Shown here piece after piece: positions 9,879-28,695 of a stretch of DNA of 64,000 nucleotides; within the stretch, counting starts at the first letter, position 1, and the number at the start of each line of letters is the position of its first letter. Source of the DNA: Candidatus Thiobius zoothamnicola (GTDB taxonomy: Bacteria > Pseudomonadota > Gammaproteobacteria > Chromatiales > Chromatiaceae). The notes below the pieces were generated by a model. The model was given only the letters and a program-made list of their open reading frames with translations. It had not been told where the DNA came from and searched no databases. A program made the translations under genes and the position numbers. The stretch is taken from NCBI GenBank assembly GCA_030826945.1, contig JAPQLC010000015.1:62001-126000 (forward strand). The letters run 5' to 3'.

Positions 9879-10286
<408 letters not shown>

Positions 10287-14820: not shown

Positions 14821-15438
14821 TCATTTACCGTCATCCAGCGAATTCAGGTATTCCGCCAAGACATCACCGTGACAGGCTAAAGGCTTACAATGACATCCTA
14901 GGATTTTTCCTTTTAATTCGAGCGCATCTTCTTTGCTTTTTTTAAGGAATCCTTTTTCAAAATCATATTTGAATTTCCTAATTGCCTCATCTCTACTATT
15001 TTGTTCTTCACCGAGAGATGCTCCGAATCCAACTGCATACGGATTCCCCCAAGGAGTGCCTCGACCAATATAAACATCGAATTTTTCACCCTTATCTTTG
15101 TTCACAACTTTAGTGATATTGGCCTCAATTATTCGCGATCTAATTCCTTGATTCTTCGCATTATCAATCAGAGAGTTGAATGATTCACCGTCATTGAAAA
15201 TAATTGCATGGCTAATTTTACTTAAATATTCTTCATCAATAGGGGATGTGATGGCGTCATTGACTCTAGCATCAGATGATAAATGACGACTGATGAACTT
15301 GTTATAATCAGTCATATATGCGATATAAAACTGATTGAAGTTTGAGAGAATCTTAGATAATTTTCTCTCGAACTTCTCGTAACATAGGAATGTTTTTGGG
15401 TAAGCGATTAGTACGGTGGGTATTTTTCCGGTATTCAT
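14821..15438 (-). CDS. DUF4326-domain protein with extra N-terminal domain
   Basis: A 205-residue protein. The C-terminal 85 residues are a DUF4326 domain: V-Y-I-G-R-G-T-P-W-G-N-P-Y, then L-K-G-K-I-L-G-C-H-C-K-P-L-A-C-H-G-D-V-L-A-E-Y-L. The first 110 residues (V-L-I-A-Y-P start, then A-I-I-F-N-D-G-E-S) look like a Rossmann-like alpha/beta domain, perhaps of the DUF2493/SLOG kind, but I am not sure. Biochemical function is unknown; the Cys/His motif could bind metal or be catalytic. It overlaps the DUF488 gene by four bases (ATGA). The gene is clearly more AT-rich than the flanking genes, suggesting acquisition. Confidence 0.78.
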   Translation of the reverse strand: MNTGKIPTVLIAYPKTFLCYEKFERKLSKILSNFNQFYIAYMTDYNKFISRHLSSDARVNDAITSPIDEEYLSKISHAIIFNDGESFNSLIDNAKNQGIRSRIIEANITKVVNKDKGEKFDVYIGRGTPWGNPYAVGFGASLGEEQNSRDEAIRKFKYDFEKGFLKKSKEDALELKGKILGCHCKPLACHGDVLAEYLNSLDDGK

Positions 15439-15875
15439 ATGAGATGTACTACCTTAATATTCGTATCCCAGTGTTCATTCAAATAGTCAACCACGAGACG
15501 CCTATGGCAGTGATGTGGCTCATGTTCACTACATAATAAGCAACCATGATCTAACAGAGATGAGTCAATTGTACGTTCAATATTTCTTTTAGCCATCAGG
15601 TTAATGAATTTCTCCTCATAGACATTCCAAGTAATTATTTTCTTTTTATAGTCACTGAGAATACTCTTTGTCGGTGCCAACTCGTCCAAGTGAATGTAAT
15701 CAGCACCACACAATTCAGATAAGAAATATCTTAAATCATTCCGTTTGGCAAACCCAGAAAGTTGAGATACATTATTTAGTCTTACATCAATTATTCTAGA
15801 TACCTCATTCCTTCTAAGAAGCGTGAAGAATCTCTTTGCACCTTTCTGAGTAAAACCAATAGTAAAAGTCTTCAT
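15435..15875 (-). CDS. DUF488-family protein
   Basis: A 146-residue protein with the DUF488 hallmarks: T-I-G-F-T at the start, I-I-D-V-R near 28-32 and the C-terminal L-L-C-S-E-H-E-P-H-H-C-H-R-R-L-V-V-D-Y-L motif. The family function is not established. It is the middle gene of an AT-rich three-gene minus-strand cassette, coupled by a four-base overlap to the DUF4326 gene downstream and 102 bases after the dual OB-fold gene. Its Cys/His motif resembles that of its DUF4326 neighbour, which suggests related chemistry. Confidence 0.85.
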   Translation of the reverse strand: MKTFTIGFTQKGAKRFFTLLRRNEVSRIIDVRLNNVSQLSGFAKRNDLRYFLSELCGADYIHLDELAPTKSILSDYKKKIITWNVYEEKFINLMAKRNIERTIDSSLLDHGCLLCSEHEPHHCHRRLVVDYLNEHWDTNIKVVHLI

Positions 15876-15977
15876 TGTGAAGTTTCCATGGGCACCTGCT
15901 TATTCAAATATGGCGTTTTTCAGGTTAGCTTGGTAGACTACTCTCATAAATAAACAGATACTTAATGTGCTTATCTA

Positions 15978-16604
15978 TTATAGAATTGTGGCTACTATTT
16001 TGTAGCATGAGTAATCATCGCCACCTTTAGGGTCATGTTTTTCTCCAAGGCTGATGCAAAGAATTCCCTGGTTGTTAGGCTCCTTAAATTGTTCTTCGAA
16101 ATACGGATCTGTAACGGGAAGATTATAGTGTACTCCAGCATATTGGAACTCAGCACGCCTCTTACTATCATCATTTCTCAGTTGCAGGTTGGTAATTTGT
16201 ACAAGATAGAGAGACTGGCTTATATGAATCTCTCCATTTTCTATTTTCGCATAGTTGACCTTATTGCTTTCTCCCCATAAGCTATTCGGCCGATCTAAAT
16301 AATTTTGGATTTCGTCACCCTGAATTTTGTAATGTTGTCGCCATATTCTGTCGGAAACGAGGTAATTCTCTGGTTGGTTCGGTAATGGTGCAGGACCAGA
16401 CAAGGTCATCTCAATTTTTTGTAATGGTTTTACCTTTGTGAATTTACCGTAGGGATTTTCATATAAACATTGCTTTTCTGATAGCGCGGCTCCTTCCTGA
16501 TTAGAGACTGGTCTTATCCACTTGTGTGAGTTAATGTCTTTTCCAGCGATGCAGTGTTCTCTGTGTTTTACTGAATTTGCGAATATGACAATGGTTGCAT
16601 TCAT
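15978..16604 (-). CDS. Dual OB-fold domain protein
   Basis: A 208-residue protein of the family annotated as dual OB domain-containing. The N-terminus I-V-I-F-A-N-S-V-K-H-R-E-H-C-I-A-G-K and W-I-R-P-V-S are the recognisable features, followed by two beta-rich halves and an ending with D-D-Y-S-C-Y-K-I-V-A. OB folds usually bind nucleic acid or oligosaccharide, so nucleic acid binding is likely but unproven. First gene of the cassette with DUF488 and DUF4326. AT-rich compared with neighbours, and next to an IS30 relic. Confidence 0.78.
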   Translation of the reverse strand: MNATIVIFANSVKHREHCIAGKDINSHKWIRPVSNQEGAALSEKQCLYENPYGKFTKVKPLQKIEMTLSGPAPLPNQPENYLVSDRIWRQHYKIQGDEIQNYLDRPNSLWGESNKVNYAKIENGEIHISQSLYLVQITNLQLRNDDSKRRAEFQYAGVHYNLPVTDPYFEEQFKEPNNQGILCISLGEKHDPKGGDDYSCYKIVATIL

Positions 16605-16737: not shown

Positions 16738-16905
16738 CTAAGTGACTATAGCGTTATTTTCTGAGTCAGATTGAGTCTTATTCATGATGGCGGATTCAAG
16801 CTGTAAGTGCAACGCAGCAAAAGCACCGTAAGGTACTCGATAACCGAGGTATTTACATGGTCGCTGGTTGATCTCCAAAACCATTTCATCCAGCACTTGA
16901 TTTGT
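16738..16905 (-). pseudogene. IS30-family transposase remnant (extreme C-terminus)
   Basis: On the minus strand a frame reads V-L-D-E-M-V-L-E-I-N-Q-R-P-C-K-Y-L-G-Y-R-V-P-Y, the C-terminal block of IS30 transposases (normally R-P-R-K-x-L-G-x-x-T-P), and then runs open to a TAG at 16738-16740. Upstream similarity breaks by a frame change near 16905. Only the tail remains, so it is inactive. It is distinct from the relic at 8875-9000. Confidence 0.75.
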
Positions 16906-21130: not shown

Positions 21131-21715
21131 AGTCGTCCGCTTTTAAGGTTTAAACCTCCGCCTTCCAGGTGGGTAGCTTTCAGCTAGCGGTTGTATTAGT
21201 GTGAGAAGATGGACTATCGCACAGGCTCGCATACGAAGTACAAGCTGGAATACCACTTTGTATGGGTAACGAAATATCGCTATCCGGTATTGTGTGGCGA
21301 ATTGGCACTTCGGTTGTGGGAATTGATACGCCAAACCTGCCATCAATTTGAGATAGAGATTATACGGGGTGTAGTGAGTAAAGATCATGTGCCTGTATTG
21401 ATGTCAGCTCCACCCACGATGAGTCCAGCAGAGATCATGAAGCGTCTCAAGGGGCGAACATCGATGAAGTTGTTTGAAGAATTTCCGCCTGTAAGAAAAC
21501 GTTATTGGAGCCGTCATTTTTGGGCACGCGGCTATTTTTGCGTGACGGCTGGTGAATTGACGAAACAGATGATTGAGGAATATTTGGCCCATCATTTCGA
21601 GGAAAAGGCCAATCCAAACTTCGAGATTGAAGGATAAACCCGCTTTATCGGGTCTTTGGTGGGACTTTCAGTCCCTTATCCCAACCATCGTCTTTAGACG
21701 GTGGTTGTTAAGTGG
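21131..21715 (+). mobile_element. IS200-type insertion sequence
   Basis: A single tnpA gene (21209-21637) lies between subterminal hairpins. On the left are a 12-base palindrome AGGTTTAAACCT (about 21145-21156) and TAGCT-TTC-AGCTA (about 21174-21186); on the right is CAACCATCGTCT-TT-AGACGGTGGTTG (21682-21707). No tnpB is present. IS200 elements make no target duplication, so exact ends are estimates. It sits between mtaD and gluQ and interrupts no gene. Confidence 0.75.
21209..21637 (+). CDS. tnpA: IS200/IS605-family transposase TnpA with altered HUH motif
   Basis: A 142-residue Y1 transposase. The fold signature Y-H-F-V-W-V-T-K-Y-R, F-W-A-R-G-Y-F and the helix with the catalytic tyrosine (Y125 in M-I-E-E-Y-L-A-H-H) are intact. 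The metal-binding HUH motif, normally D-H-V-H, reads D-H-V-P: H60 is followed by P62, with codon CCT where CAT is expected. This single change should abolish or cripple DNA cleavage. Otherwise full length, so the copy died recently. Confidence 0.9.
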   Translation: MDYRTGSHTKYKLEYHFVWVTKYRYPVLCGELALRLWELIRQTCHQFEIEIIRGVVSKDHVPVLMSAPPTMSPAEIMKRLKGRTSMKLFEEFPPVRKRYWSRHFWARGYFCVTAGELTKQMIEEYLAHHFEEKANPNFEIEG

Positions 21716-26900: not shown

Positions 26901-27119
26901 ATGTTAAAAGTAGAAACAACCCAAAAAACCATCACACTTTCTTTCAGTAAGGATTTTATGCCGCCGGCAAAGCTGTCGGATTTAATAGAAAATCTGCGCA
27001 TGAAAGAATTACTGGCGAAAAGCCAATTAACTGAACAACAAGCCTTCAATTTAAGTAAGGAGTTAAAAGAAAACTGGTGGAAAAATAACCGCAAAGAATT
27101 TCTTAAGGAGATTGAATGA
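26901..27119 (+). CDS. Antitoxin partner of PIN toxin
   Basis: A 72-residue, Lys/Glu-rich, mostly helical protein with no recognised domain (K-L-S-D-L-I-E-N-L-R-M-K-E-L-L and a C-terminal W-W-K-N-N-R-K-E-F-L-K). Size, position and a four-base overlap (ATGA) with the PIN gene support an antitoxin role. It is AT-rich compared with dnaK and dnaJ, so it was probably acquired. The ribosome site is weak. Confidence 0.65.
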   Translation: MLKVETTQKTITLSFSKDFMPPAKLSDLIENLRMKELLAKSQLTEQQAFNLSKELKENWWKNNRKEFLKEIE

Positions 27120-27532
27120 TTACAACCCATGCAATTACCGTCGATACAAATATAATTTTTTCTGCACTACTCAAGAATCACAGTAACTACTACGACGTAT
27201 TAACAAACAACTCAATACATTTTTTAATTCCCAAGTTTGCTTTTATAGAGTTATTTAAACACAAAGAAAAGATAGTCCGATATTCAGAACATGCTGATGA
27301 TGAGGTGTTGGAAATTTTATATGGCATTATGAAGAATATACAGATCTACGATGAAAATCTTATCTCATTAAATAGCCGGGAAAAAGCTTGGAATCTGGTC
27401 AAGGAAATTGATGAAAAAGATACTGTTTTTGTCGCCTTATGCCTGGAAACTAACAGCCGTTTATGGACAGGTGATAAAAAGCTTATTAATGGTTTAAGGA
27501 ACAAAGGCTTTGATCGGTTTTTTGAAATCTAA
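27116..27532 (+). CDS. PIN-domain ribonuclease toxin (VapC-like)
   Basis: A 138-residue PIN protein. Acidic residues expected for metal binding are D10 (V-D-T-N-I), E45 (F-I-E-L-F), D99/D102 (E-I-D-E-K-D-T) and D120 (W-T-G-D-K-K-L). PIN toxins of this kind cut RNA, often tRNA or rRNA, when the antitoxin is lost. The pair sits between dnaK and dnaJ, normally adjacent genes, and is AT-rich. Not a typical VapB-type partner, so the subfamily is uncertain. Confidence 0.82.
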   Translation: MITTHAITVDTNIIFSALLKNHSNYYDVLTNNSIHFLIPKFAFIELFKHKEKIVRYSEHADDEVLEILYGIMKNIQIYDENLISLNSREKAWNLVKEIDEKDTVFVALCLETNSRLWTGDKKLINGLRNKGFDRFFEI

Positions 27533-27539
27533 AATTATA

Positions 27540-27553
27540 GGACAAATATGTCC
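27540..27553. repeat. Short inverted repeat between PIN toxin and dnaJ
   Basis: GGACA-AATA-TGTCC, a perfect 5-bp stem. Role unknown. Nearby, the 8-base string AATCTGAT occurs just before dnaJ (27565-27572) and also just before the antitoxin (26895-26902). Confidence 0.4.
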
Positions 27554-27573
27554 GGGCAAAAAGTAATCTGATA

Positions 27574-28695
27574 ATGTCAAAACGCGATTATTACGACGTA
27601 TTGGGCGTAACCAAAAATGCCAGTGAGGCGGAAATCAAAAAGGCTTATCGCCGTCTGGCGATGAAATATCATCCTGATCGTAATACCGGTGATAAAGCGG
27701 CTGCGGCGGAAAAAAACTTCAAAGCCGTCAAGGAAGCTTACGAAATTCTTTCTGATGCGCAAAAGCGATCGGCTTATGATCAATTCGGCCATGCTGGCGT
27801 CGATCCCAGTATGGGACCCGGTCATGCGGGGTCAGGCGATTTCAGCGATATTTTCGGCGAAGTGTTCGGCGATATTTTCGGTGGCGGTCGGGGCGGCGGA
27901 TCCAAAGTCAATCGAGGCGATGATTTAGGCTATAACCTGGAACTCAGCCTGGAAGATGCGGTGGCTGGCAAAACCGTGAAAATCAAGGTGCCGACCAAGG
28001 TGACTTGCAAAACGTGCGGTGGTTCAGGTGCCAAGCCTGGTAGCCAGCCGACGACTTGCGGCACTTGTGGTGGAACTGGCCAGGTGCGTATGCAACAAGG
28101 CTTTTTCTCCGTCCAGCAAACTTGTCCGAGTTGTCATGGTAAAGGCTTCACGATTAATGATCCCTGTAAGGCCTGTCATGGCCGTGGGTGGGTGCAGGAA
28201 ACGAAGACCTTATCGGTCAAGGTGCCGCCTGGCGTGGATACTGGTGATCGTATTCGGTTGGCAGGTGAAGGGGAAGCAGGCGCAAATGGCGGATCGCCAG
28301 GGGATTTATACGTCCAGGTGAGTGTGAAGCCGCATCCGATTTTCACCCGTGAAGACAGCCACCTCTATTGTGAAATGCCGATTTGTTTCACTACAGCGGC
28401 TTTAGGTGGTGAGACAGAAGTGCCGACTTTGGGTGGTCAAATCAAATTGAAGATTCCTGAAGGGACGCAAACCGGCAAAATGTTCCGCATACGGGGTAAA
28501 GGCGTGAAGCCAGTGCGTGGCGGCCCCCAAGGTGATTTATTGTGTAAAGTTGTGGTGGAGACACCGGTCAAGTTGACCGCCAAACAGCGCAGGCTGATTG
28601 AAGACCTGGATCAATTACTGGCGGATGATGGCAGTAAACACACGCCTCATTCGCATGGTTGGTTGGGACGAGTCAGAGACTTTGTCGGCTTATAG
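27574..28695 (+). CDS. dnaJ: Chaperone DnaJ (Hsp40)
   Basis: A 373-residue type I Hsp40. The J domain has the H-P-D motif at 33-35, followed by the Gly/Phe-rich segment (about 75-115), four C-x-x-C-x-G-x-G repeats binding two zinc ions (about 145-210) and the substrate-binding C-terminal domains. It delivers clients to DnaK and stimulates its ATPase. The ribosome site before the ATG is poor. dapB follows on the same strand after 53 bases. Confidence 0.97.

Follow-up and report, generated by a model that had tools for sequence, protein, structure and literature searches.

A mobile three-gene cassette from Candidatus Thiobius zoothamnicola is a variant of the phage defence candidate PDC-M45 with an exchangeable dual OB-fold subunit

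We analysed a stretch of 64,000 nucleotides of the Candidatus Thiobius zoothamnicola genome (the window), in which positions 14821-16604 carry three intact open reading frames on the minus strand in the order DuOB, DUF488 and mSLOG-DUF4326 (Table 1). A preliminary description had recognised three tightly packed genes here, and the reading frames, the 4-base overlap between the second and third genes and the 102-base gap between the first and second were all confirmed. The cassette is an exact fit to the Pfam families DUF488-N3a (labelled 'active'), mSLOG and DuOB, while an NCBIfam scan of the three proteins returned nothing significant. The SLOG-like domain that had been suspected in the DUF4326 protein is real and corresponds to the Pfam mSLOG family, a minimal SLOG.

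Table 1. Features of the cassette and its flank (window positions) and examples of DuOB subfamily B at other loci (locus:positions).
Feature	Position	Strand	Basis or remark
DuOB (gene 1; exchangeable subunit)	15978..16604	-	208 aa; ORF, Pfam DuOB 7e-49, PADLOC PDC-M45A 7.5e-40
DUF488 (gene 2; constant subunit)	15435..15875	-	146 aa; ORF, Pfam DUF488 5e-23, DUF488-N3a (active) 4.5e-10, PDC-M45C 1.7e-68
mSLOG-DUF4326 fusion (gene 3)	14821..15438	-	205 aa; ORF, Pfam; 4-base overlap with gene 2
mSLOG domain, residues 7-112	15103..15420	-	Pfam PF22565 8.4e-33
DUF4326 domain, residues 112-196	14851..15105	-	Pfam PF14216 1.3e-19
DUF488 motif C112-L-L-C115-S-E...C123-H-R-R126	15498..15542	-	invariant in 11 aligned members
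DUF4326 motif L180-G-C182-H-C184-K-P-L-A-C189-H-G-D192	14863..14901	-	C182, C184, P186, C189, H190, G191, D192 invariant in 41 members
IS30-type transposase C-terminal remnant, flanking, no functional part	16786..16896	-	reading frame, weak tblastn, dispersed repeat
DuOB subfamily B examples	L003:5286-5987, L018:9293-10000, L020:2146-2853		
DuOB subfamily B examples, further	L037:9300-10004, L044:8653-9381, L109:9282-9980		

The cassette had been described as AT-rich, and its GC content of 0.374 was far from the average of the genome (mean 0.499, sd 0.033, from 1078 overlapping cassette-sized segments covering ~350 kb), with ~0.1% of these segments equally low. The mSLOG-DUF4326, DUF488 and DuOB genes had GC contents of 0.369, 0.354 and 0.394, respectively. 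Two further AT-rich patches lie in the window at 59401-60600 and 27001-27600 (GC 0.33-0.40), and an IS200-like transposase gene (21209-21637, plus strand; Y1_Tnp, 5.6e-39) lies ~4.6 kb from the cassette. The description of the neighbouring frame as a dead IS30 tail is supported: IS30-family transposases were its best annotated matches, though weak ones (E 0.1-0.9), and ~110 bp of it recurs at three other sites in the genome with 70-75% identity. A Pfam scan of its peptide found no recognised domain. Relatives retain the leuA-UDG synteny but not fbpB as a neighbour, which prevented a clean reconstruction of the empty site. A search of the host for a particulate monooxygenase gave no match, and its control search was equally without a match.

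The cassette was compared with its nearest relatives, loci L014 and L016. The DNA aligned to both at ~75% in the two enzyme genes and at 70% in DuOB, and these alignments were confined to about 14824-16604, with unrelated flanks. Because similarity ends at the edges of the cassette, the cassette moves as a unit, and the alignment edges independently placed this unit where the preliminary description had drawn it. Its settings elsewhere are varied. A 4167-bp mobilizable plasmid of Klebsiella and Citrobacter (L006, L007) holds the complete cassette and little else, which makes it a handy natural construct; on larger plasmids the cassette lies beside restriction-modification or toxin-antitoxin genes, and in P2-like and other prophages it lies beside tail-completion or terminase genes. 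In E. coli SC487, the only one of 5426 E. coli genomes to match the query used, its neighbours are icd on one side and an integrase on the other, and e14-type remnants with mcrA adjoin this site.

Linkage among the three genes was conserved whichever of them served as the anchor. We collected 140 loci from plasmids, viral contigs, and named and whole genomes, most of them found via DUF488 and some of them near-duplicates, and profiles built here detected a complete three-gene set in 125. The layout of the window, DuOB followed by DUF488 and mSLOG-DUF4326, occurred at 50 of the 140 loci, and DuOB followed by a long DUF488 and then DUF488 occurred at 44. A divergent DuOB (subfamily B) heads the same two layouts at 13 and 3 loci, respectively. 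Changes of gene order leave the linkage standing, as at six cyanobacterial loci (long DUF488, DUF488, DuOB) and at one locus, L117, ordered mSLOG-DUF4326, DuOB, DUF488. Stand-alone genes were also found, both for DUF488 (L015, L045, L067, L069, L090, L093) and for mSLOG-DUF4326 (L012, L142).

A DuOB-anchored sample consisted of 369 genomes of the class, picked regardless of the cassette. DuOB was present in 11 of these (3%), and DUF488 or mSLOG-DUF4326 adjoined it in 10 of the 11, the exception being an orphan DuOB (L131). When the same 369 genomes were searched for the third protein, a full-length or clearly partial copy was found in six, the genome of the window included, and all six were among the 11 with DuOB; a seventh (G267) had the DUF4326 part only. 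With the genome of the window excluded, all five mSLOG-DUF4326 genomes fell within the 10 DuOB genomes of 368 (hypergeometric P 4.6e-9), although two of the five belong to one genus and the events are therefore not all independent. The cassette occurs in many unrelated bacteria across a broad range of phyla, and it is both horizontally mobile and conserved.

The preliminary description had assigned all three proteins to families without known function, which was too strong for two of them. DuOB and DUF488 already appear in PADLOC as PDC-M45A and PDC-M45C (7.5e-40 and 1.7e-68), parts of one of the uncharacterised 'phage defence candidates' (PMC12482510), and the operon logic is alike; the DUF4326 protein matched no PDC model significantly. 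PDC-M45 also includes PDC-M45B, a long DUF488 of ~205 aa. The cassette of the window has no second DUF488 and carries mSLOG-DUF4326 instead. It is a variant form of a defence candidate that PADLOC already lists.

What is new here relative to the listed candidate is that DuOB is swapped wholesale, for which we found no published description in the accessible literature. Among pairs of loci whose DUF488 proteins are 95-99.5% identical, the partner enzyme had a median identity of 95%, and DuOB had a median of 56% and a minimum of 27%. The sharpest cases compare L105 with L112, L107 and L101 (DUF488 95-97%, partner 82-89%, DuOB 26-27%). The prophages of L105 and L112 are colinear over ~12 kb, with upstream and downstream stretches of 7.4 kb at 82% and 2.4 kb at 81%, respectively; homology breaks off at ~8583 in the flank and resumes at 10001, which is the start of DUF488, and the replaced block holds DuOB. 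The same downstream edge was seen between L105 and each of L107, L101 and L032. It recurs between L096 and the E. coli copy, whose match starts only at the end of DuOB next to DUF488. Between L017 and L020, identity is 87% for DUF488 and 82% for the third gene, but only 25% for DuOB, which is of different subfamilies in the two. On a DUF488 tree (123 rows, 146 columns, many forks poorly supported), the partner, be it mSLOG-DUF4326 or long DUF488, required three changes and the DuOB subfamily 12, and the occurrences of subfamily B with mSLOG-DUF4326 were as scattered as shuffled labels. The drop in DuOB identity and the changes on the tree together indicate that the two enzymes travel together and that DuOB is the exchangeable part. 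HsdS of type I restriction offers a possible analogy, as a recognition subunit that is exchanged while the enzyme subunits stay; HsdS has no sequence relation to DuOB, however, and exchanges target-recognition domains, whereas DuOB is exchanged as a whole gene. The diversity of DuOB might alternatively have arisen through evasion of phage inhibitors and not through choice of target.

For the structural comparisons, plasmid rows were left out of the alignments used for prediction. The AlphaFold2 model of DuOB (pLDDT 95.9, pTM 0.91) was compared to the PDB with Foldseek, and its best matches were the HIN-200 proteins IFI16, AIM2 and p202, tandem-OB sensors of cytosolic DNA (E 1.2e-4, probability 0.93-1.0), followed by Teb1, LEF-3 and RPA, which likewise bind nucleic acid through tandem OB folds. 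TM-scores of these matches were only 0.25-0.41, so it is probably the pairing of OB folds that is common, rather than the whole arrangement, which favours tandem-OB nucleic-acid binding and not HIN kinship. For HIN-200 in particular, the matches have 6-12% identity and TM 0.26-0.41, and DuOB lacks the PYRIN partner. A viral fold library returned weak OB and LEF-3 matches only, and none of the cassette proteins had a relative in a sequence search of solved structures. The suggestion that the dual OB-fold protein binds nucleic acid gains support from this comparison of models, and DuOB is probably a DNA-binding protein. Eight residues (S11, K13, C18, A20, G21, W29, R31, K202) do not vary among 60 members, suggestive of a common ligand pocket beneath a variable surface.

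Some loci appeared at first to have no DuOB, a reading that we rejected: they carry the divergent subfamily B (Pfam DuOB up to 2e-12), whose profile alignment to DuOB spans the full length and which the PADLOC PDC-M45A models miss. Subfamily B has the signature TDLTRF...GECIRPMPYL and stands ahead of the same enzymes. At five loci (L011, L026, L035, L072, L135) DuOB is split, interrupted or has in-frame stops and the adjoining enzyme genes look intact, a hint that active DuOB can be costly.

The two remaining proteins look like enzymes. DUF488 keeps C112, C115, E117, C123, H124, R125 and R126 (11 aligned members), and DUF4326 keeps G125, R126, W130-P133, C182, C184, P186, C189 and H190-D192 (41 members), so that a conserved active-site Cys motif is present in both, as in the RapZ-C/DUF488/DUF4326 clade. 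A 2023 paper reportedly defined this clade, with a predicted role in processing DNA ends within conflict systems. The same group placed DUF4326 in the rhodanese-phosphatase superfamily, predicted that it acts on ADP-ribose derivatives and described its fusions to SLOG, Macro and NADAR domains (PMC9503650); DUF4326 has also been linked to DNA modification (PMC7824862). Our literature search found no experimental study that joins DUF488 or DUF4326 to defence. A fold search with the AlphaFold2 model of mSLOG-DUF4326 (pLDDT 90.8, pTM 0.84) returned nothing significant (best E 8e-3), and matches to low-molecular-weight (LMW) phosphatase and Rossmann folds were set aside at E about 0.01. One stand-alone mSLOG-DUF4326 gene (L012:7926-9353), with neither DuOB nor DUF488, immediately precedes a Sir2-family gene, a further hint of NAD-linked chemistry. 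DUF4326 alone was present in 1756 out of 50,697 phage records; many of these phages have large genomes, and in some the gene lies beside nucleotide-reductase genes.

A defence role had been put forward as plausible, and the genomic context supports it: the cassette belongs to a PADLOC candidate family, travels as prophage and plasmid cargo and has defence genes for neighbours. We took the two nearest ORFs on each side and found 252 PADLOC families matched at E <= 1e-12 for 130 neighbouring ORFs against 22 for 130 random chromosomal ORFs; families rather than proteins were counted, the PADLOC models are redundant and the control was not host-matched, so these counts show a strong tendency but should not be read as a calibrated enrichment. 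Copies of the cassette adjoin Gabija, BREX, CBASS, type I restriction-modification and DarT genes, and the named neighbours include GajA, GajB, BrxHI, HerA, RmrA, AriA, pAgo, a CBASS cyclase, capP and a type I methylase. In Agrobacterium, a CBASS cyclase and HORMA lie 3-5 kb upstream; in Klebsiella, a NotI-family restriction-modification system lies directly downstream; and in the mussel-symbiont relative (L016), HsdS, a UvrD helicase, DarT and an ADP-ribosylglycohydrolase are near. The cassette is thus associated with both defence genes and mobile elements, as a defence system is expected to be.

We give about an even chance to the reading that the three genes form one mobile, functional anti-phage module, in which DuOB would be the reader and the other two proteins would be Cys enzymes. 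The tandem-OB fold, the Cys motifs and the published predictions for DUF4326 favour this division of labour, with mSLOG as a ligand sensor. As the recognition subunit, DuOB would use its two OB folds to bind a feature of the invader's nucleic acid (an end, a single strand or a modified base), and exchange of DuOB alleles would change the target that is recognised. DUF488 and mSLOG-DUF4326 may be paralogous enzymes of the rhodanese/Cys-phosphatase type, whose substrate would be either the nucleic acid that DuOB recognises or a nucleotide derived from it. The mSLOG part would probably serve to sense or position a nucleotide ligand, for instance a derivative of ADP-ribose or NAD. The assembly of the three proteins into a complex, like its activity against phages, is our proposal.

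The same cargo on plasmids and prophages could instead serve the element and not the cell, as counter-defence that clears host immune signals such as ADP-ribose derivatives or mends ends that host defences have cut. DUF4326 is common in phages, for which it is predicted to process ADP-ribose derivatives (PMC9503650, PMC7824862). However, the cassette's types of DUF488 and DuOB were absent from all cultured phage records searched, although separate DUF4326 is common there, and many chromosomal copies of the cassette lie beside defence genes, so that we consider counter-defence fairly improbable. A further possibility is a pathway for stress or for nucleic-acid repair or modification that is not aimed at phages, with DuOB binding damaged DNA or RNA ends and the two enzymes processing terminal phosphates or sugars. 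The Cys-phosphatase-like motifs, a tandem-OB fold common to RPA and Teb1 and the broad range of phyla would all suit such a role, but rarity in the class, mobility, the company of defence genes and exchange of DuOB would be unusual for a repair pathway and make it improbable. That the cassette is an addiction module that keeps plasmids, with one harmful component restrained by another as in toxin-antitoxin pairs, is highly improbable: it does occur on very small plasmids that carry little else and close to toxin-antitoxin genes on several plasmids, but wholesale exchange of one subunit is atypical for such modules, and the loci with broken DuOB and two intact enzymes (L011, L026, L035, L135), together with the persistence of stand-alone DUF488 or mSLOG-DUF4326, mean that none of the three genes acts as an antidote that the others cannot do without.

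Returning to the anti-phage reading, a bolder form of it, which we hold to be possible but rather unlikely, is a new class of bacterial immune complex in which an interchangeable HIN-like or RPA-like dual-OB 'reader' would direct two paralogous Cys enzymes to mark or cap the ends of foreign nucleic acid chemically, its specificity changing as the reader gene alone is exchanged horizontally.

PDC-M45 itself represents one version of a modular system whose slots are interchangeable, one taking either of two DuOB subfamilies and the other long DUF488 or mSLOG-DUF4326. DuOB alone is exchanged at high frequency, and this yields natural chimeras that combine closely related enzymes with unrelated readers, so that the contribution of each part can be tested directly in laboratory E. 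coli. Should DuOB prove to be a DNA reader, it would be a bacterial recognition subunit with the tandem-OB layout of animal DNA sensors.
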